Origin: Salinivibrio sharmensis
GTDB taxonomy: Bacteria > Pseudomonadota > Gammaproteobacteria > Enterobacterales > Vibrionaceae
Direction of reading: 5' to 3'
Length of the DNA stretch: 52,498 nt
Assembly (NCBI RefSeq): GCF_001995985.1
Contig: NZ_MUFC01000017.1
Location: 1 to 52,498, forward strand
Shown here: positions 33,172 to 48,192 of the stretch, piece after piece
Position numbering within the stretch: position 1 is the stretch's first letter
Layout: the number at the start of each line of letters is the position of its first letter
The notes under the pieces: model-generated
Seen by the model: only the letters and a program-made list of their open reading frames with translations
Told to the model about the DNA's origin: nothing
The model's database searches: none
Position numbers and translations under genes: made by a program

Positions 33172-33337
33172 AACCACTCCCTATTTATAGCTAGTTTACG
33201 CGATAAGCCCTGCCAACGTTTAGTGCCAGCGGTGAAAATAGAAGGTTGGATCCTGAGTGTCAGGCAACTAGGCTATTCATTATCAGGCCATGCATGTGTC
33301 CGTGCGGCGACACGCGAACAGGCAACAAGGAGGGATC

Positions 33338-34318
33338 GTGACACCAAGCTTGCATGATGTATACCTTGCTCGCCAAGCGATAAAGACAGTGGCAACACGC
33401 ACACCGCTTGTTTATTCACCGGCGCTTTCTGAGCGTTACCAAGCACAAATTTGGCTGAAGCTCGAAACGAGCCAGCCGACGGGCGCGTTTAAATTACGCG
33501 GCGCCACCTATGCATTGAGTCGGTTGCCTAAGGGGCTGCGTGAACGAGGGGTGATCACGTGCTCGACAGGCAACCATGGACGTGCGCTTGCCTACGCCGC
33601 GAAGCAGCTTGGGATCCCGGCGACCGTGTGTCTCTCTTCATTGGTGCCCGACAATAAAGTGGACGCTGTTAAAGCCATGGGGGCGCGAGTGTGGGTAGTG
33701 GGACGCTCGCAAGATGAGGCCGAGCAAGCCGCGCTCGAGGCCGTTTCGCGTGATGGCTTATGCTATGTCCCTCCCTTTGATCATCCCGATATTATTGCCG
33801 GGCAAGGGACCATTGGGCTCGAGATCCTCGAAGATGCGCCAGATGTTGACGTGATTGTCGCCGGTTTGTCGGGGGGCGGCTTAGTGGGAGGGATTGGCGT
33901 AGCGGTACGCACCATCGCCCCACATATCGACCTGATTGGCGTTTCCATTCGTGATGGGGCTGCTATGCATGAAAGCATAATGGCGGGTCAGCCAGTCGCG
34001 GTGCCGGAGTCTGAATCGTTGGCTGATAGCCTTGGAGGAGGTATTGGCCTTAATAACCAATACACCTTTGCCCTAGTGCCCCATGTAATGACGCAGCATT
34101 ATCAAGTGGATGAAGCGTTTATCGCCCGTGCGATGATCGATATGTGGCAGTGCGAAAATAGGTGGGTAGAAGGTGCCGCCGTAGTGGGGTTAGCCGCGGC
34201 ACGTCAACACCAGTTAGATTGGCAGGACAAGAAAGTGGTGATCGTGGTCAGTGGAAACAATGTGTCAACTGACACCCTGACAGCGGTTACAGCATTAAGT
34301 GAACAGATTCGTCCTTAG
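33338..34318 (+). CDS. eutB: EutB/BhcB-like PLP dehydratase (threonine-dehydratase family)
   Basis: 326 residues beginning at a GTG with an AAGGAGG site (the frame is open from 33290). PLP-binding Lys52 lies in GAFKLRG, with the Asn loop STGNHGRA and the glycine loop SGGGLVGG. The sequence follows the EutB pattern of ectoine-utilisation clusters (PPFDHPDIIAGQGT, DSLGGGIGLNNQYTFAL), and BhcB of the beta-hydroxyaspartate cycle belongs to the same family. The likely chemistry is dehydration of a beta-hydroxy amino acid to an imine. No ectoine-ring hydrolase or other eut/bhc genes lie in the window. Confidence 0.8.
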   Translation: MTPSLHDVYLARQAIKTVATRTPLVYSPALSERYQAQIWLKLETSQPTGAFKLRGATYALSRLPKGLRERGVITCSTGNHGRALAYAAKQLGIPATVCLSSLVPDNKVDAVKAMGARVWVVGRSQDEAEQAALEAVSRDGLCYVPPFDHPDIIAGQGTIGLEILEDAPDVDVIVAGLSGGGLVGGIGVAVRTIAPHIDLIGVSIRDGAAMHESIMAGQPVAVPESESLADSLGGGIGLNNQYTFALVPHVMTQHYQVDEAFIARAMIDMWQCENRWVEGAAVVGLAAARQHQLDWQDKKVVIVVSGNNVSTDTLTAVTALSEQIRP

Positions 34319-34356
34319 TTTGTGGTTGAATTTTGGTGAGTGCCAAAGGAGCCCGT

Positions 34357-35322
34357 ATGCAGCTATATCACCGTCAGCAAATTGAATCTGTCGCGACGTT
34401 TAATCGGCACAGCCTCAGTGTGATTGAGCGTGCCTTCAGTGCCTTGGGACGTGGCGAGGTAACCATGCCACCAGTGTTAAGCATGGTCATTCATGAGCAC
34501 AACGGCGAAGTCGATGTAAAAACCGCTCACATCCAAGGCGCTGAGCGGTTTGCGATTAAAGTCAGTCCCGGCTTTTTTGACAATCCGTCGATCGGTCTGC
34601 CGAGTCTTAATGGTTTGATGGTGGTTTTTTCAGCATCAACCGGTGTGGTGGAAGCCGTACTGTTCGATGAAGGGTACCTCACGGATGTGCGCACGGCACT
34701 AGCGGGAGCACTAAGTGCCAAGTATTGCGCGCGCGAGGATGCCAAAACAGTCACGGTATTGGGCGCGGGCACACAAGCAAGGTTGCAGGTGGCTGCGCTC
34801 AAACTGGTTAGAGAGATAGACACGGTTCATGTTTGGGCGCGAGACAGTGCACAAGCAAGGCGGTATAAAGCAGAGGTTGAGGCCGAGTTGGGAATACGGG
34901 TGATCCCTTACCAAGATGTGGCGCAGGCTTGTCAACAGGCCGATATCATTGTCACCACGACACCGGCCAAGCAGCCGATTTTGCATTGGCAAGACATTCC
35001 CAAGGGGGCTCATATCACGGCGATGGGCTCTGACAGTGCAGAGAAGCGCGAGCTTGATCCTCATATTTTGCACAATGCCGACTGGGTGCTGGTGGATAAA
35101 CGTGCTCAGTCTGAGGTGTTGGGGGAACTCAAAGGGCTGGCATTGTCACGATGTGTGGAAGAGTTGGGCAAAACAGTAGCGTCGGGGCGTCCCATCGCGC
35201 GAAGTGATGCGGCGATCACCGTATGTGACTTAACAGGAACAGGCGTGCAAGACACTGCCATAGCAAACTACGTGGTCAGTGCATTGCACCATACTCACGG
35301 CTCGGGCGATGCTGGGGCATGA
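34357..35322 (+). CDS. eutC: EutC/BhcD-like imine reductase (ornithine cyclodeaminase family)
   Basis: 321 residues from the ATG at 34357, which has AAGGAG upstream (the frame is open from 34333). It contains the NAD-binding Rossmann motif VLGAGTQARLQ (about 130-140), TTTPAKQPIL, ITAMGSD and TDVRTALAG, typical of the ornithine cyclodeaminase/mu-crystallin family. HNGEVDVKTAH, ISPGFFDNP-like (VSPGFFDNPSIGLPS) and DLTGTGVQDTAIA match EutC and the iminosuccinate reductase BhcD. It is 38 bases downstream of eutB. Together they could convert a beta-hydroxy amino acid to its deoxy form. Confidence 0.8.
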   Translation: MQLYHRQQIESVATFNRHSLSVIERAFSALGRGEVTMPPVLSMVIHEHNGEVDVKTAHIQGAERFAIKVSPGFFDNPSIGLPSLNGLMVVFSASTGVVEAVLFDEGYLTDVRTALAGALSAKYCAREDAKTVTVLGAGTQARLQVAALKLVREIDTVHVWARDSAQARRYKAEVEAELGIRVIPYQDVAQACQQADIIVTTTPAKQPILHWQDIPKGAHITAMGSDSAEKRELDPHILHNADWVLVDKRAQSEVLGELKGLALSRCVEELGKTVASGRPIARSDAAITVCDLTGTGVQDTAIANYVVSALHHTHGSGDAGA

Positions 35323-35569: not shown

Positions 35570-37477
35570 ATGCACAAACACAGCTCTCTTGCGCTGATCA
35601 TCGGCGCACTATTCCATACCTCCGGGGTATGGGCGATGGCCCAAGTGCCAGATCCTGTCGATCCTCCCACCGATCCAGACCCACAAGCGTGTGTCTCACT
35701 GGTTGGCAATAATAATATCGATGGCAGCCGCACCAGTGAAGAGCGTTGCTTGCCCGGTGACGATCCCTTTACGGCCGAACAGTGGCATTTGCTTAACCGT
35801 GGTCAAAATGCCTTTGCTCGTGAAGGAGGCAAACCGGGCAATGACCTCAACGTATGGTTAGCCCATCGCCAAGATGTGCTTGGACAAAACGTTAACGTCG
35901 CCGTCGTCGATGATGGGTTAGAAATTGCCCATCCCGATCTGGCCGCTAACGTCCGTGCTGGAAAATCTTATGACTTTGTAGAGCGTGATGATGATCCTAC
36001 ACCAGAGGGGTGGAGCAGTCGCAATACTGCTCATGGTACGTCGGTCGCGGGGATTATCGCGGCGGTTCGTAATAATGGTATTGGTGGGATGGGGGTAGCA
36101 CCGCTTGCCAACCTGCAAGGCTATAACTATCTCGAATATCAAAGCCAGAATGCGTGGGAAATCAGCCATGGCCGCGAAGGCTACTCGGATGATGTACGCG
36201 TGTTTAACCAAAGCTATGGCGGCTCTGGTATCCGTAGTTATCCTTACAGTGATGATCCGATGAGCTATGATGGTCGTCAAAACGCCCAGTACAAAAAAAT
36301 GAGCACGGAAGCCTTTGGCGGACTTGGCGCAGTTTTCATCAAATCAGCGGGTAATGGCTATAAGCGTACCTCGTTTAATCGTGAGCGTTTCCGTCCAGCG
36401 GACGATAACCATGGTTTACCGTGGCAAAATAGCAACCAATCGTCGAGTAATGCGAATTACTGGAACGTGACGGTGAGTGCGTTGAATGCGGATGGTGAGC
36501 GTTCATCCTACTCCTCCGTAGGTAGCAGCGTCTTCTTAACCGCGCCAGGTGGCGAGTATGGCACCAATAAACCGGCGCATATCACCACGGATTTGACTGG
36601 CTGTACCATGGGCTACAATCGCGACGATCGTATTCCTTATGATTCACATGACTTACATGGTGGAACAGAGATAGACAACACCTGTGACTTTAACAGTGTC
36701 ATGAATGGTACGTCTTCGGCCGCGCCAAACACCTCAGGGGCATTTGCGTTGATGATGTCAGCCTATCCAAATCTGTCACAGCGCGATATTCGTCACCTAT
36801 TAGCGACGACCGCGACACGCGTGGATGCAGACGATGCAGATGTGCTTTTAACCTATCAAACGGCACTGGGTGGTGAGCGCACGGTGACCGGCCTAGAAGG
36901 CTGGAAGCAAAATGCAGCAGGGCGCTGGTATAGCCCAACCTACGGCTTTGGTTTGATTGATGTTAATGCGGCACTCGACGCGGCGAAGACATATCAGCCA
37001 TTGCCTGCACAAGTATTCACGGATTGGACGTGGTCTTATCACAACCAAGAGGGTGAGACTGGGTTAACGATTGCGGATGCGGGAGCCGTATCAACGGCTG
37101 ATAGTGTGCAAGTCGTGGATGATCTGACTATTGAGGCTGTACAAGTTCGTACCTCAATTGAGCATAGCCGTATGTCGGATTTGCTGATTGAACTCGAGTC
37201 CCCTTCTGGTACCCGCAGCGTGCTAATGTCGCCGCGCAATAGCATGTTATCGAATACCCTAGATAGCACCTACCCAGAAGGCTTTACTGACCACTTGATG
37301 CTCAGCCATAAGTTCAATGGTGAAGCATCGCAAGGTCAATGGACACTCTACGTCACAGATACAGACGGCAAGACGCGTCAATACAGCCTCGGGGGTGAGT
37401 TGAAATCGATGGCGAATAACAGCGTTGATGGTAAATTGACGCAATGGTCACTGCGTGTCATTGGTCACCGCGGTTAA
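35570..37477 (+). CDS. Secreted kexin-like S8 serine protease with P domain
   Basis: 635 residues. The signal peptide is about 1-24. A Pro/Asp-rich linker with Cys41 and Cys60 leads into a kexin-type catalytic domain beginning near FTAEQWHL (68-75). The catalytic triad is Asp114 in VVDDG, His155 in AHGTS and Ser382 in GTSSAAP, with oxyanion Asn262. The C-terminal P/homoB domain is at about 500-635. There is no room for an N-terminal propeptide of normal size. A small secreted protein is encoded 13 bases downstream. The arrangement is that of the Aeromonas sobria protease ASP and its chaperone ORF2. Confidence 0.88.
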   Translation: MHKHSSLALIIGALFHTSGVWAMAQVPDPVDPPTDPDPQACVSLVGNNNIDGSRTSEERCLPGDDPFTAEQWHLLNRGQNAFAREGGKPGNDLNVWLAHRQDVLGQNVNVAVVDDGLEIAHPDLAANVRAGKSYDFVERDDDPTPEGWSSRNTAHGTSVAGIIAAVRNNGIGGMGVAPLANLQGYNYLEYQSQNAWEISHGREGYSDDVRVFNQSYGGSGIRSYPYSDDPMSYDGRQNAQYKKMSTEAFGGLGAVFIKSAGNGYKRTSFNRERFRPADDNHGLPWQNSNQSSSNANYWNVTVSALNADGERSSYSSVGSSVFLTAPGGEYGTNKPAHITTDLTGCTMGYNRDDRIPYDSHDLHGGTEIDNTCDFNSVMNGTSSAAPNTSGAFALMMSAYPNLSQRDIRHLLATTATRVDADDADVLLTYQTALGGERTVTGLEGWKQNAAGRWYSPTYGFGLIDVNAALDAAKTYQPLPAQVFTDWTWSYHNQEGETGLTIADAGAVSTADSVQVVDDLTIEAVQVRTSIEHSRMSDLLIELESPSGTRSVLMSPRNSMLSNTLDSTYPEGFTDHLMLSHKFNGEASQGQWTLYVTDTDGKTRQYSLGGELKSMANNSVDGKLTQWSLRVIGHRG

Positions 37478-37490
37478 TAGGAGACGAAGT

Positions 37491-37895
37491 ATGAAAAAAT
37501 TAATGATAGCCCTGGCAGTCATGGGTATCAGCCTTGGTGCAAGCGCAGGCACGGTACAGCTAAACGGTAAAGACTATGTGGTCGTCGAAACCGACAGCAA
37601 TGCGCGAGCGATAAGTGGCGAAAAAATGGGCGTGATGGTCGGCGATAAAGTCGCCGTCTCGGCACAAAGCGAGCCATTAACGGTCACAGGCTCGATTTTG
37701 GTCAAAGCCAGTGAGGCGAACGCCAACCAGCTAGCACAGAAATATGGCCTTGACCTAGTCAGCTATCTCGATGGCGTGGCGTTGCTGGAAGCGACGCCCG
37801 GTACCAATGTAGCGGAGCTAGAAAAGGCGTTAAATCAAGAGTTGGATACGCCTGTCAATCTTGAGCTAAATCTACAAAATCAGCGTCCACAATAA
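37491..37895 (+). CDS. Secreted propeptide-like chaperone/inhibitor of the S8 protease
   Basis: 134 residues from the ATG at 37491 with AGGAG upstream. The signal peptide ends about ASAG (residues 17-20). The mature part contains GSILVKASEANANQLAQKYG, then GVALLEATPGTNVAELEKAL. This alternation (VKF-like strand, helix with LAxKYGL, strand, helix) is that of subtilase N-terminal propeptides (inhibitor I9/fervidolysin prodomain type). It is encoded directly after a protease that lacks such a domain, so it probably acts in trans as a folding chaperone and inhibitor, like ORF2 of the Aeromonas ASP system. The functional link is inference. Confidence 0.65.
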   Translation: MKKLMIALAVMGISLGASAGTVQLNGKDYVVVETDSNARAISGEKMGVMVGDKVAVSAQSEPLTVTGSILVKASEANANQLAQKYGLDLVSYLDGVALLEATPGTNVAELEKALNQELDTPVNLELNLQNQRPQ

Positions 37896-37918: not shown

Positions 37919-37947
37919 AGAGCCCGCCTGTTTAGGTGGGCTTTTTT
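37919..37947 (+). terminator. Protease operon terminator
   Basis: AGCCCGCCT / AGGTGGGCT stem (37921-37929, 37934-37942, one G-U pair) with a GTTT loop, then a T run. Confidence 0.85.
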
Positions 37948-44917: not shown

Positions 44918-45968
44918 GGCGTTGTTTCCTAAATCATTGAACTTATCATCCGAGCCGCGATCAGATCATCAACGCCTCAAACAGGTCACAGATGATGAGC
45001 AAAGCCAAGTACAAAATCAGCAATTGGAAGCAATACAATCAAGCATTGATTAACCGTGGTTCGATTACCTTTTGGGTTGATGACGCCGCTATCCAGACTT
45101 GGCACTGCAAAGAGCATCATGGCAAACGAGGCAGAGGCTTTACGTTTACCGATGGTGCCATTGAAACAGCACTGATGGTTAAAGGCATTTTCAAGCTCCC
45201 TGTTCGCGCCCTGCAAGGCTTTCTCGACTCGATATTTGGTTTGATGGACGTACCGCTAAAATCGCCGTCATACAGTTGTATCAGTAAACGGGCGAGGACG
45301 GTTGAAGTTAATTACCGATTACCCAGTCGTGGACCCGTTGCTCACGTCGTCATTGATGCCACCGGTTTAAAAGTGTTCGGCGAGGGAGAGTGGAAAATGC
45401 GCAAGCATGGCAAGGAAAAACGCCGTGTTTGGCGCAAGCTGCATCTCGCGATTGACGACAGTACACATGAAGTGATTTCTGCCGTCGTTAGCTTAGCGTC
45501 TGTTGGTGACAATGAAGCCTTGCCGACGCTGCTCAACCCGTTACGCCGAAAAATCGCCCAAGTCAGTGCTGACGGCGCTTATGATACTAAGGCGTGTCAT
45601 CAAGTGCTCAGGAGAAAAGGCATCAAACCGACCATTCCACCGCGCAGCAATGCGGGTTATTGGGAGAATGATCATCCTCGCAATGCAGCCGTCAGCGCCT
45701 TGAAATCGGGTAACTTGGCAAACTGGAAACGAGAAGAAGGTTATCACCAACGCTCTCTGTCAGAAACAGGCATGTCTCGATACAAAACGTTAATCAGCCC
45801 TGAGCTGACTCTACGTAACTACGATGCACAAGTTGGCGAAGCATTGGCCAACGTGAAAGCGATAAACAAAGTCATAAGACTTGGTATGCCTGTTAGTTAC
45901 CGAGTTGACTGATGGGAGTAATCCCATAGGGATCAGTACGTTAGGTGAATGATTTGATCAACAACGCC
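44918..45968 (+). mobile_element. IS5-family element, IS903 group, complete ends
   Basis: Terminal inverted repeats start with GGCGTTGTT at 44918 and end with AACAACGCC at 45968. The imperfect repeats share GGCGTTGTT plus the inner AAATCATT block (44931-44938 and its complement on the right). Element length is 1051 bp, close to the about 1.05 kb of IS903. One transposase gene fills it. No 9-bp target duplication is seen: the left flank is TCACAGCTA and the right flank TCTTTGAAC. This suggests deletion or recombination after insertion. The right end lies inside the frame of the ankyrin gene. Confidence 0.88.
44992..45912 (+). CDS. IS5/IS903-type transposase
   Basis: 306 residues, DDE superfamily. 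The middle shows VVIDATGLKVFGEGEWKMRKHG, RRVWRKLHLAID and SADGAYDT, and later KVIRLGMP. The overall sequence follows IS903 transposase closely by memory. There is no stop or frameshift, so it should be functional. A second ATG follows immediately (44995). Confidence 0.93.
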   Translation: MMSKAKYKISNWKQYNQALINRGSITFWVDDAAIQTWHCKEHHGKRGRGFTFTDGAIETALMVKGIFKLPVRALQGFLDSIFGLMDVPLKSPSYSCISKRARTVEVNYRLPSRGPVAHVVIDATGLKVFGEGEWKMRKHGKEKRRVWRKLHLAIDDSTHEVISAVVSLASVGDNEALPTLLNPLRRKIAQVSADGAYDTKACHQVLRRKGIKPTIPPRSNAGYWENDHPRNAAVSALKSGNLANWKREEGYHQRSLSETGMSRYKTLISPELTLRNYDAQVGEALANVKAINKVIRLGMPVSYRVD

Positions 45969-48192
45969 TCTTTGAACGCCAATTTATTATCAGCCGCTCA
46001 AGGTCAATCCGCTGGCGTGTACGAGAATCAACACATGTATCACCCCAATTAACTTGGTGATACTTTGAATCCAACATCACCTCCACGAGCTCAGCTTCAT
46101 CTAATTCGATCGCCAGCATTAAAGGTGTGTAGCCAAGCATAGCTGTGTCGTGTTTCGCATTAGGATCGGCACCATGTTCAATTAAAAGCTTCGCAATATC
46201 CCTAAAACCTTCAGCCGTTGAGTACTTTGCAATGTTTCTCCTTTCATGTTCTTTCATTGCCTCATGCACATGACGGAACAAGGGATCACGATCCTGCTCA
46301 GACATTACCCGTTTTAAGTGTTGAAGATCGTGCGGAAACAACCCAGCAGAATGAGCTCGGACAGATTTCAGATTCATTTCCGAGTATTTCATCGAATCCC
46401 AGTGAACAGCATTAGTTTGAGGTCTCGTATGGTGTGCAATAAGCCCTATTACGGTATAAAGCGGTGTCTCACCAATAATGTCGTGCCTTCTATCTACCGT
46501 AGCACCCATCTCAAGTACTCTCTTTACAATATCGAGCCGTCCTGTCTGTACGGCACATCCAAGCGGAGAGAGCTTTCTTTTGTCCGTTAGTGTATCTAGA
46601 ACACTTTTCCGATGAGGTTTTTGGCTCAATAGGTTGAACGCCTCATCACTCATCGAATTTAATGGAGTAAGGTTGACCTGCATTGCTTGGATAGCCATCA
46701 AGATCGCAGACTCATTACTTGAAGAAAGCTTGTTGACATCTGCTCCTGCATCAACCAGCGCAGAAATCGCTTCCATATCATCCTGCATGGCAAAGTAGAC
46801 GAGTTGAGGTATTTTCTTGATAAGTCCACCAGCCATCCCGACTGATAGCGCCTTATTCGGCTTTTTAATGTCTAACTCATGACTCGTTTCATCTACCATC
46901 CAAACACCACTTTTGTCGTGTGTGTCCTCTGGATAACTAGCTCCAGGAAAGAATGATTCCTTGGTAAAAAATGCGTCAAAGTACTGGCTAAAAGCAGAGA
47001 TCTCCCAATTGTCGATATCCTGGGGTTTGGCTTTAAATGCATCATTATTGACATTTGGCGGCATGAAATCGATTTTCATCACCACAGCCATTCGTCGGAG
47101 TCGATTAATAAAGCTTTTAGCCGGTTTAGGGGCACGACACGCCGCTATAATAGCCTCAACAATAATTTTCTCTGCGTTTTCTCCTTGCCTGTAAATGACA
47201 TATTCAAACGCAAGCTTGTACTCTTCAATAGCCTCTGCTAATTCTCCTGAATGCAGGTGGTAACGAGCTTTCATCCAGTGATAGTAGTAAGTCGTCTCGT
47301 TATTGGTATCAAGCTTTTGTTGTTGCTGATTGAGTTGATTCAGTAACTCTAAACAATGCTTCTGACTGCCCATTGTTTTTGGTCCTCTCAGGCGAAGTAT
47401 TTTCAGCAGCCCTAACGCAAATGAAGAAGTGGATTGATATTTTAATGTCCCTTTTTGGAGCAGTTCGACTAGTTGCTTCGCTAATGCTTCGAGGCACTGT
47501 TCAAGCGAATTATGTTTAAGGATTGCTAAATCGGTATAACCGCTACGATAAAAGAAATAGTCCCATAAACGCGCTACAACTAGGCGTGCTTTAAATGTCC
47601 CCCAGCTGTTGCCTCGTTGCCATTGTTCTCCTAATGATGCAATGCTTGTCAGTTCAGGCAATTCAGAACCAGGTCCTAAAGACCAGATTCGTAAACGTTC
47701 TTTTTGAAGCTCAGAGCTGTTGATAAGAAATTGTTGCCACTCCGTTGAACACTCAAGTTTCTCTAACACAAGGGACATCAAGGTGTTATCACTCCAAGCA
47801 ACATCTCTAGGCGTTAGCCGCATACCATCTAAAGAATCTGAGCAAATTTCAGCAACAGCAAACGTCATAAAGAATCGGTCGATAAATTGCCGAGCTAATT
47901 CAGCATTCACACCATCTAAAGGCACAGTTTTTATCAGACTCAGATAGGTTTCCGTCACACGCTCAAATTGCTCTAAGACATGATCAGCAAAGTAAATGTT
48001 TACATACTTAGTGATCGGCTCATGGATGAGCTCTCTTTTCAATGACTCCAAGTGGTATGGGTTTATTTCTGCACTCTTGCATGCATCATCAATTTTCTTG
48101 CCAGCTAAGGCTTTGGTGCCTAAGCCTTTTGCAAACTCTCTGAGCAGATACTGCACGGAGTAATAAGGTGTATTTATCGTTTTACTAGTCAT
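45958..48192 (-). CDS. Ankyrin-repeat protein with helical N-terminal domain
   Basis: 744 residues, no recognised family. Residues 1-460 are helical, with a TPR-like stretch around 310-345 (YYYHWMKARYHLHSGELAEAIEEYKLAF). Ankyrin-type repeats lie at about 464-503 (ISALVDAGADVN), 541-584 (IVKRVLEMGATVD) and 658-720 (AKLLIEHGADPNAKH, YTPLMLAIE), with a charged insert of about 75 residues. There is no signal or membrane segment. The start lies two bases after the stop of the HicA-like gene and lacks a ribosome site, so it is coupled. The last residues and stop are encoded by the right end of the IS element, so the native C-terminus may be lost. Possible defence or regulatory role is inference only. 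Confidence 0.7.
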   Translation of the reverse strand: MTSKTINTPYYSVQYLLREFAKGLGTKALAGKKIDDACKSAEINPYHLESLKRELIHEPITKYVNIYFADHVLEQFERVTETYLSLIKTVPLDGVNAELARQFIDRFFMTFAVAEICSDSLDGMRLTPRDVAWSDNTLMSLVLEKLECSTEWQQFLINSSELQKERLRIWSLGPGSELPELTSIASLGEQWQRGNSWGTFKARLVVARLWDYFFYRSGYTDLAILKHNSLEQCLEALAKQLVELLQKGTLKYQSTSSFALGLLKILRLRGPKTMGSQKHCLELLNQLNQQQQKLDTNNETTYYYHWMKARYHLHSGELAEAIEEYKLAFEYVIYRQGENAEKIIVEAIIAACRAPKPAKSFINRLRRMAVVMKIDFMPPNVNNDAFKAKPQDIDNWEISAFSQYFDAFFTKESFFPGASYPEDTHDKSGVWMVDETSHELDIKKPNKALSVGMAGGLIKKIPQLVYFAMQDDMEAISALVDAGADVNKLSSSNESAILMAIQAMQVNLTPLNSMSDEAFNLLSQKPHRKSVLDTLTDKRKLSPLGCAVQTGRLDIVKRVLEMGATVDRRHDIIGETPLYTVIGLIAHHTRPQTNAVHWDSMKYSEMNLKSVRAHSAGLFPHDLQHLKRVMSEQDRDPLFRHVHEAMKEHERRNIAKYSTAEGFRDIAKLLIEHGADPNAKHDTAMLGYTPLMLAIELDEAELVEVMLDSKYHQVNWGDTCVDSRTRQRIDLERLIINWRSKRRC

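Follow-up and report, generated by a model that had tools for sequence, protein, structure and literature searches.

The DNA analysed here is a 52,498-nucleotide stretch of the Salinivibrio sharmensis genome (contig NZ_MUFC01000017.1; hereafter the window), which carries on its forward strand a gene for a kexin-like protease followed directly by a small gene whose product resembles ORF2, the external chaperone of the Aeromonas sobria protease ASP. The first gene (35570..37477) encodes an ASP-like S8 protease of 635 residues. Its Peptidase_S8 catalytic domain (residues 105–418, 35882..36823; Pfam PF00082, E = 3.3e-42) holds the triad motifs Asp114, His155 and Ser382, and is followed by a P_proprotein domain (residues 521–601, 37130..37372; PF01483, 7.7e-17). 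Triad positions and P domain are as given in an initial annotation made from the letters alone. That annotation also described a protease lacking an N-terminal prodomain, and a Pfam scan down to E = 1 found no prodomain family in it, the sole extra match being DUF2914 (0.12). Compared with solved structures, the protease was closest to ASP of A. sobria (3hjr_A, 1.8e-176; 3wqb_A, 4.2e-176), with furin as the next relative (1.9e-33); its closest listed relative came from Salinivibrio siamensis, at 97% identity. The window's own genome also has a frame for a conventional subtilase, with the I9 prodomain fused to it (L171, G000:C33; L, G and C numbers are our labels for loci, genomes and contigs).

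The two genes are separated by 13 bases (37478..37490), within which GGAG at 37480-37483 resembles a ribosome-binding site by eye. The second gene (37491..37895) starts with ATG at 37491 and encodes a 134-residue, ORF2-like putative external chaperone ending in Arg-Pro-Gln. By eye, its N-terminus resembles a signal peptide. It belongs to Pfam ORF_2_N (PF18492, 7.5e-34) and matched A. sobria ORF2 in the PDB (2mk4 and 3wqb_B) at about 1e-12. In this protein, LVKASEANANQLAQKYG begins at residue 70 and GVALLEA at residue 95; its body (residues 57–116, 37659..37838) aligns with fervidolysin-type prodomains in family-level hhalign comparisons, and as a single sequence with PF22148 at 0.078, below the cut-off. 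A terminator-like hairpin with a T run lies 3' of orf2 (37926..37941), a weak signal given that three such sites occur in the region and 3.2 are expected from shuffled sequences. The gap, length, coordinates and motifs of the secreted-type protein had been described correctly, and the proposal that the pair mirrors ASP/ORF2 is borne out by the E values above for ASP, PF18492 and the ORF2 structures.

Much about such pairs is already established. The abstract of the 2015 structural paper reportedly describes ORF2 as a propeptide-like central body with a tail, without sequence homology to propeptides, and is said to place the folding of ASP with ORF2 in the periplasm. In the open-access literature that we searched, outside which the main 2015 paper lies, we found no statement of kinship between ORF2 and fervidolysin, of the type II pairs described below or of a tree-based detachment, and no account of where ASP's chaperone came from. 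PMC5638518 states that activation of A. sobria ASP requires ORF2, that the last residues of ORF2 (Gln-Pro-Lys) extend into the catalytic centre of ASP, and that ASP cleaves after Lys-Lys. A 2022 subtilase survey treats the N-terminal propeptide as an intramolecular chaperone with ASP excepted, and lists AspA as one of two subtilases without a propeptide (PMC9549277). As judged from its sequence, the window pair is an ordinary member of this published family. Its occurrence outside Aeromonas, put forward initially as a new find, is not one, asp/orf2 operons being in print for Vibrio, Shewanella, Chromobacterium and Pseudoalteromonas (PMC5638518); nor can that occurrence serve as a sign of detachment, since a wider host range alone would not show detachment.

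To describe the distribution of the pair, we searched PF18492 in family, order, class and phylum samples that share genomes. It matched in 29 of 150 family genomes (24 over cut-off), 30 of 295 order-sample genomes, one of 369 class-sample genomes (the window's own) and seven of 398 phylum-sample genomes; the order and phylum counts each include one chance match, L058. The family sample gave 32 matches, 30 of them with loci, and tblastn found an ASP-like protease in 30/30. A scan with the protease alignment kept 80 of 407 titled relatives (L091-L170). ORF2 lay downstream on the same strand in 78 of these 80 protease loci, which shows that the pairing is not chance. Gaps between the two genes ran from -44 to +50 bases in 76 of the 78, the other two being 138 and 147 (starts picked by script). 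Beyond the four published genera, hosts include Salinivibrio, Photobacterium, Enterovibrio, Grimontia, Veronia and Marinifaba. Altogether, 138 ORF2-type loci, found through ORF2 or through the protease, held 136 pairs; they come from two overlapping collections, so 136 pairs are not 136 species. Candidates for fused ORF2–protease genes were sought among the PF18492 matches and none was found: no frame exceeded 202 residues except L058 (638 residues), by eye an unrelated reductase, which we take to resemble a sulfite-reductase flavoprotein.

Protease and ORF2 have diverged together. Over 75 pairs, with five of the 80 loci omitted, the correlation of their distances was r = 0.89 (maximum 0.10 in 2000 permutations), and one and the same locus was the nearest neighbour for both proteins in 43 of the 75. 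The nearest protease came from another genus in six cases, in four of which the nearest ORF2 came from that genus too. This correlation shows joint descent, not interaction, with species history uncontrolled. At E <= 1, hidden Markov models (HMMs) of fervidolysin-type and I9 prodomains matched none of the paired protease frames of L091-L170 (n = 78; L100 a fragment only), while the ORF2 HMM weakly matched some of them (best 0.035), mostly at the signal-peptide end. Several loci depart from the usual arrangement. Tandem ASP-ORF2-ASP-ORF2 arrays occur in uncultured Shewanella (L161 and L163), with second ORF2s, identified by eye, that are divergent and end in Lys. In Salinivibrio socompensis (L009 and L100), asp is split into several frames beside an intact orf2 frame, a pseudogene or an assembly error. 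In five Shewanella loci (L113, L116, L161, L166, L168), the ASP homologue has about 100 additional residues N-terminal to its catalytic domain, immunoglobulin-like by eye, and most of these homologues are lipoprotein-like.

Two of the 80 protease loci lack a downstream ORF2. One (L095) stops at a contig end just past the protease. The other (L167, Pseudoalteromonas sp. OOF1S-7) retains triad motifs by eye and has no ORF2 in the downstream frames read, as might be expected if ORF2 of Salinivibrio were a dedicated inhibitor or immunity protein and not a folding chaperone; the reported inhibition of ASP by A. sobria ORF2, with a half maximal inhibitory concentration of 84.3 nM (PMC5638518), points the same way. 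However, a further ASP/ORF2 pair in the assembly of L167 (L159, with the same accession prefix) could serve it, and the same source describes ASP as needing ORF2 to become active, so that we regard a purely inhibitory role as improbable.

The initial annotation had further proposed that the chaperone arose from a detached prodomain, and a profile comparison was among its suggested checks. For this, we assembled the prodomains of fused Gammaproteobacterial subtilases found with PF22148 (fervidolysin type, 24 of 30 loci used) or with PF05922 (I9, 7 of 11 loci used). HMA domains (30 loci), a family with the same general fold, served as a fold-alike control. The ORF2 profile (36 sequences) scored 41.8 against the fervidolysin type in hhalign (probability 93%, 68 columns; maximum 14.6 in 200 column permutations), about the score of the positive control, fervidolysin against I9 (40.2). 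Trimmed of signal peptides and N-terminal extensions, the ORF2 body still scored 39.8 (maximum 18.1 in 150 column permutations). The I9 set gave no such match to ORF2: scores were 15.5-16.6 with probability 2–3%, and 16.6 compares with a maximum of 16.4 in its own permutations. The ORF2 body thus matches the fervidolysin type and not I9. The ORF2 HMM also matched the fused prodomain of L261 at 4e-5. PF16470 (S8_pro-domain) was uninformative, with no match in 56 genomes nor in 14 controls.

Other results weigh against this kinship. HMA scored 20.9 against ORF2, over 21 columns, with a maximum of 14.0 in its 200 permutations, and against the body only it reached a probability of 31%, though over 21–22 columns. 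The window ORF2 obtained 13.8 bits from PF22148 (Fervidolysin_NPro-like), short of the cut-off of 21, and even a divergent ORF2 (L059), at 0.001, stayed slightly below that family's cut-off. Among 1575 background open reading frames, the ORF2 HMM matched one stand-alone prodomain-like protein, L077, at 0.0016, but fused prodomains appeared at E = 0.24 or worse and were outranked by an HMA-locus match at 0.031. Against the N-termini of the fused double-prodomain proteases introduced below, ORF2 scored 30.8 (probability 43%), or 28.8 (probability 55%) for the body only. Alone, the plain ORF2 HMM search is too weak to establish kinship with prodomains.

A second kind of partner connects ORF2 to prodomains. 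The protease alignment matched in 20 of the 219 class genomes searched, and 20 regions were taken from 14 of these; the other six are the window's own genome and five whose matches were weak (best E 6e-15 to 9e-12). Twelve regions hold a prodomain-less S8 protease with P domain beside a separate protein of about 190–210 residues, downstream in 11 of these 12 further pairs and upstream in L250. N-terminally fused forms were present in seven regions, in L259 and L260 with weak HMM support only. The remaining region (L254, genome G196) has two prodomain-less S8 proteases with P domains and no adjacent partner. The only PF22148 match in G196 was L077 (G196:C1, 1147–1764), a stand-alone protein of 205 residues on another contig of this draft assembly and a possible unlinked trans prodomain for the L254 proteases.

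Three of the 12 partners (L242-L244) are divergent ORF2s (3e-9, 1e-5 and 3e-6 with a custom ORF2 HMM). The other nine and L077 make up what we call type II (n = 10), with the consensus WYDG...SPV...ALPGN...SPNWW and a basic last residue in 10/10 (Arg in nine, Lys in one). Pfam was run on ten partners, eight of type II and two divergent ORF2s, with L243, L247 and L251 not among them. Fervidolysin_NPro-like exceeded its cut-off in L256 (7.2e-5) and L077 (4.3e-5) and fell below it in L245, L246, L248 and L249; it had no match in the type II partners L250 and L252 or the divergent ORF2s L242 and L244. In hhalign, type II scored 61.6 against the fervidolysin type, 60.5 against the fused double-prodomain N-termini, 40.0 against ORF2, 20.5 against I9 and 10.7 against HMA, and the bodies of ORF2 and type II matched each other at 34.2 (maximum 18.0 in 150 permutations).

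These scores also bear on whether ORF2 could be an inhibitor or chaperone of other descent, taken on by a protease after the loss of its prodomain and resembling prodomains by convergence on a common fold. Such recruitment would fit the weak single-sequence matches of ORF2 to prodomains, the HMA scores above their own permutations and the lack of sequence homology to known propeptides that the 2015 abstract reportedly notes. However, the fervidolysin profile scores about twice as high as I9 or HMA and does so over a body of 66–68 columns, while type II partners match ORF2 by profile and two of them are named fervidolysin prodomains by Pfam over cut-off. We therefore think recruitment very unlikely and retain kinship with fervidolysin-type prodomains.

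Searched against the PDB, type II partners had no convincing match (best E 0.061, to a designed protein by its name); two partners scanned against NCBIfam and one (L256) searched against plasmids had none. The type II profile matched in 0/143 phylum genomes and in two of the three genomes in G224's order, both among its source genomes. About 1.6 kb after a full pair lies a 53-residue frame (L267, G352:C4:93777-93890) that matches type II partners in their C-terminal part (7.6e-6) and may be the remnant of a second partner. A proposed link between the basic partner end and an Asp close to what is presumed to be the S1 pocket was rejected: 12 of 18 rows with the Asp had such a partner compared with 6 of 93 others, but the column ranked only 39th of 435, and kinship explains the pattern.

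To place the change of state, we built a careful tree of 58 S8 domains (316 columns) from which L060, L167 and near copies were omitted, with I9-type fused proteases as the chosen outgroup. All 31 rows without their own prodomain formed one clade (support 99/98), which contained an ORF2-type clade (100/99) and a type II clade (97/86) that includes the two L254 rows without an adjacent partner. Its sister was a group of six proteases (98/97), each with some 160–190 residues fused at its N-terminus, a region which we take to be a double prodomain; the union had support of 100/100. One change between trans and fused states suffices on this tree. A quick tree of 87 rows likewise gave a prodomain-less clade, of 49 rows (99), and a third tree (other alignment, six awkward rows dropped) again required one trans/fused change, with type II not a clade. 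As for the fused double-prodomain set, its profile scored 52.2 against fervidolysin-type prodomains, and Pfam on four of its proteins found an S8 domain in each, together with a P domain in three and with SH3 and a fervidolysin prodomain in the fourth.

A single detachment from such an ancestor meets several difficulties. Fervidolysin-type fused proteases lie outside the union in two groups, and the branch that joins one of these groups to it is weak (86/61). Within the fused double-prodomain set, Pfam names a prodomain in one of the four proteins scanned, and the fervidolysin HMM gives E = 1 and 0.03 in two of the six (L259 and L260). Approximately unbiased (AU) tests of two detachments, holding either type II or the ORF2-type proteases together with the fused sister, rejected them at p = 0.037 and 0.040, a marginal result for groups that were named after the tree was seen. 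Outside the class, L060 (G796, 425-1851) has a separate partner, and its protease nevertheless falls outside the prodomain-less clade of the 87-row tree, with the fused double forms. This partner has 128 residues and ends in Arg, and its gene lies upstream of, and overlaps by four bases, that of a lipoprotein-like S8 protease without a P domain; it scored 45.8 against the ORF2 profile and 39.0 against the fused double prodomains, both without permutation controls. The long branch of its protease (1.98) makes the placement of L060 unsure, and the locus may represent an independent detachment.

The order of the genes is a further difficulty, being opposite to that expected of a simple split. With the partner downstream in 78/80 and 11/12 loci, a split alone cannot account for detachment: the partner must also have moved, or a duplication must have been followed by reciprocal loss. 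Tandem duplication and loss of opposite halves is the easiest explanation of the downstream position; tandem arrays do occur in Shewanella, but no intermediate was seen. The proposal of a chaperone derived from a detached prodomain gained support from the profile match, the type II intermediates and the tree, though the single-sequence matches are weak.

The same evidence can be read as two or more independent detachments, in which ORF2-type and type II partners left different fused ancestors. The partners differ in length and in their N-terminal half. A candidate homology between the type II N-terminal half and the first half of the fused double prodomain was rejected, as the two look alike by eye without significance (probability 1%), which would suit separate origins, as would the marginal, post hoc AU values. 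The upstream partner and long-branch protease of L060 suggest that at least this locus may be a separate event. Conversely, both types fall into one clade, the third tree also needs one change only, and the bodies of ORF2 and type II match well above their permutations. We consider repeated detachment unlikely for the two main types, although it deserves to be taken seriously.

Taking together the homology to ASP/ORF2, the conserved adjacency, the correlated divergence, the profile kinship of ORF2 with prodomains and the tree position, we think it probable that the two window genes form one secreted unit with ORF2 as trans chaperone, and that ORF2 is a fervidolysin-type prodomain detached from its protease, most likely once. 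The S8 protease with its P domain would be exported without a prodomain and ORF2 exported separately; ORF2 would bind the nascent protease and aid its folding, its C-terminal tail would occupy the active site and inhibit it temporarily in the manner of a product, and ORF2 would afterwards be released or degraded. The chaperone and inhibitor functions in Salinivibrio are proposed by homology to A. sobria. As to history, a fervidolysin-type prodomain would have left the protease, most likely once for ORF2-type and type II together; the ancestor, an S8 protease with a P domain, probably had a double prodomain fused to it. This single origin, the make-up of the ancestor and the route to the downstream position are what we infer.

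A cleaved kexin prodomain ends in a basic residue. So do type II partners, and A. sobria ORF2 has Lys at its end, in agreement with the cleavage preference of ASP. Since the window ORF2 has Gln there, the window protease may, as a guess, prefer another P1 residue. We lean, with some reserve, towards a broader statement: ASP would not stand alone, and separate prodomains would characterize a whole branch of bacterial kexin-like proteases, going back to one detachment of a fervidolysin-type double prodomain. The detached prodomain would have been kept as a trans chaperone that mimics the product, its last residue able to take the place of the cleaved P1; in G196 the sole candidate partner and the two proteases are on different contigs, and L060 would have detached independently. 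ORF2 is linked to a known prodomain family by way of the intermediate pairs and the change is placed on the protease tree, making the origin of ASP's chaperone directly testable, and related enzymes offer natural systems for comparing folding help in trans with that in cis.

Two other parts of the window drew attention. At 33290-35322, a pyridoxal-phosphate-dependent dehydratase-like gene is followed by an ornithine cyclodeaminase/mu-crystallin gene, a pair that resembles eutB/eutC of hydroxyectoine use. On the reverse strand, 45958-48192 encodes a 744-residue protein with ankyrin repeats, the best stretch being residues 650–709.

Compared with ASP/ORF2 of A. sobria, the window pair is the same family in another genus. 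It shares the gene order, the architecture of S8 and P domains, the missing prodomain and a chaperone gene directly downstream, and differs in that its ORF2 ends in Arg-Pro-Gln, where A. sobria ORF2 ends in Gln-Pro-Lys (PMC5638518). The type II pairs of Gammaproteobacteria (L245-L252, L256) likewise combine a prodomain-less S8 protease with P domain and a separate prodomain protein, but their partners have 201–212 residues, are conserved in the N-terminal half and end in a basic residue, and many of their proteases are lipoprotein-like by eye. Stand-alone I9-type inhibitors such as fungal POIA1 are prodomain-like and act in trans, and are not known to be encoded together with a prodomain-less protease; I9 is also not the profile closest to ORF2. 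With the fervidolysin-type prodomain (PF22148), ORF2 shares a profile match over its body; ordinary members of that family are fused to the N-terminus of their protease, whereas ORF2 is a separate protein with an N-terminal extension.

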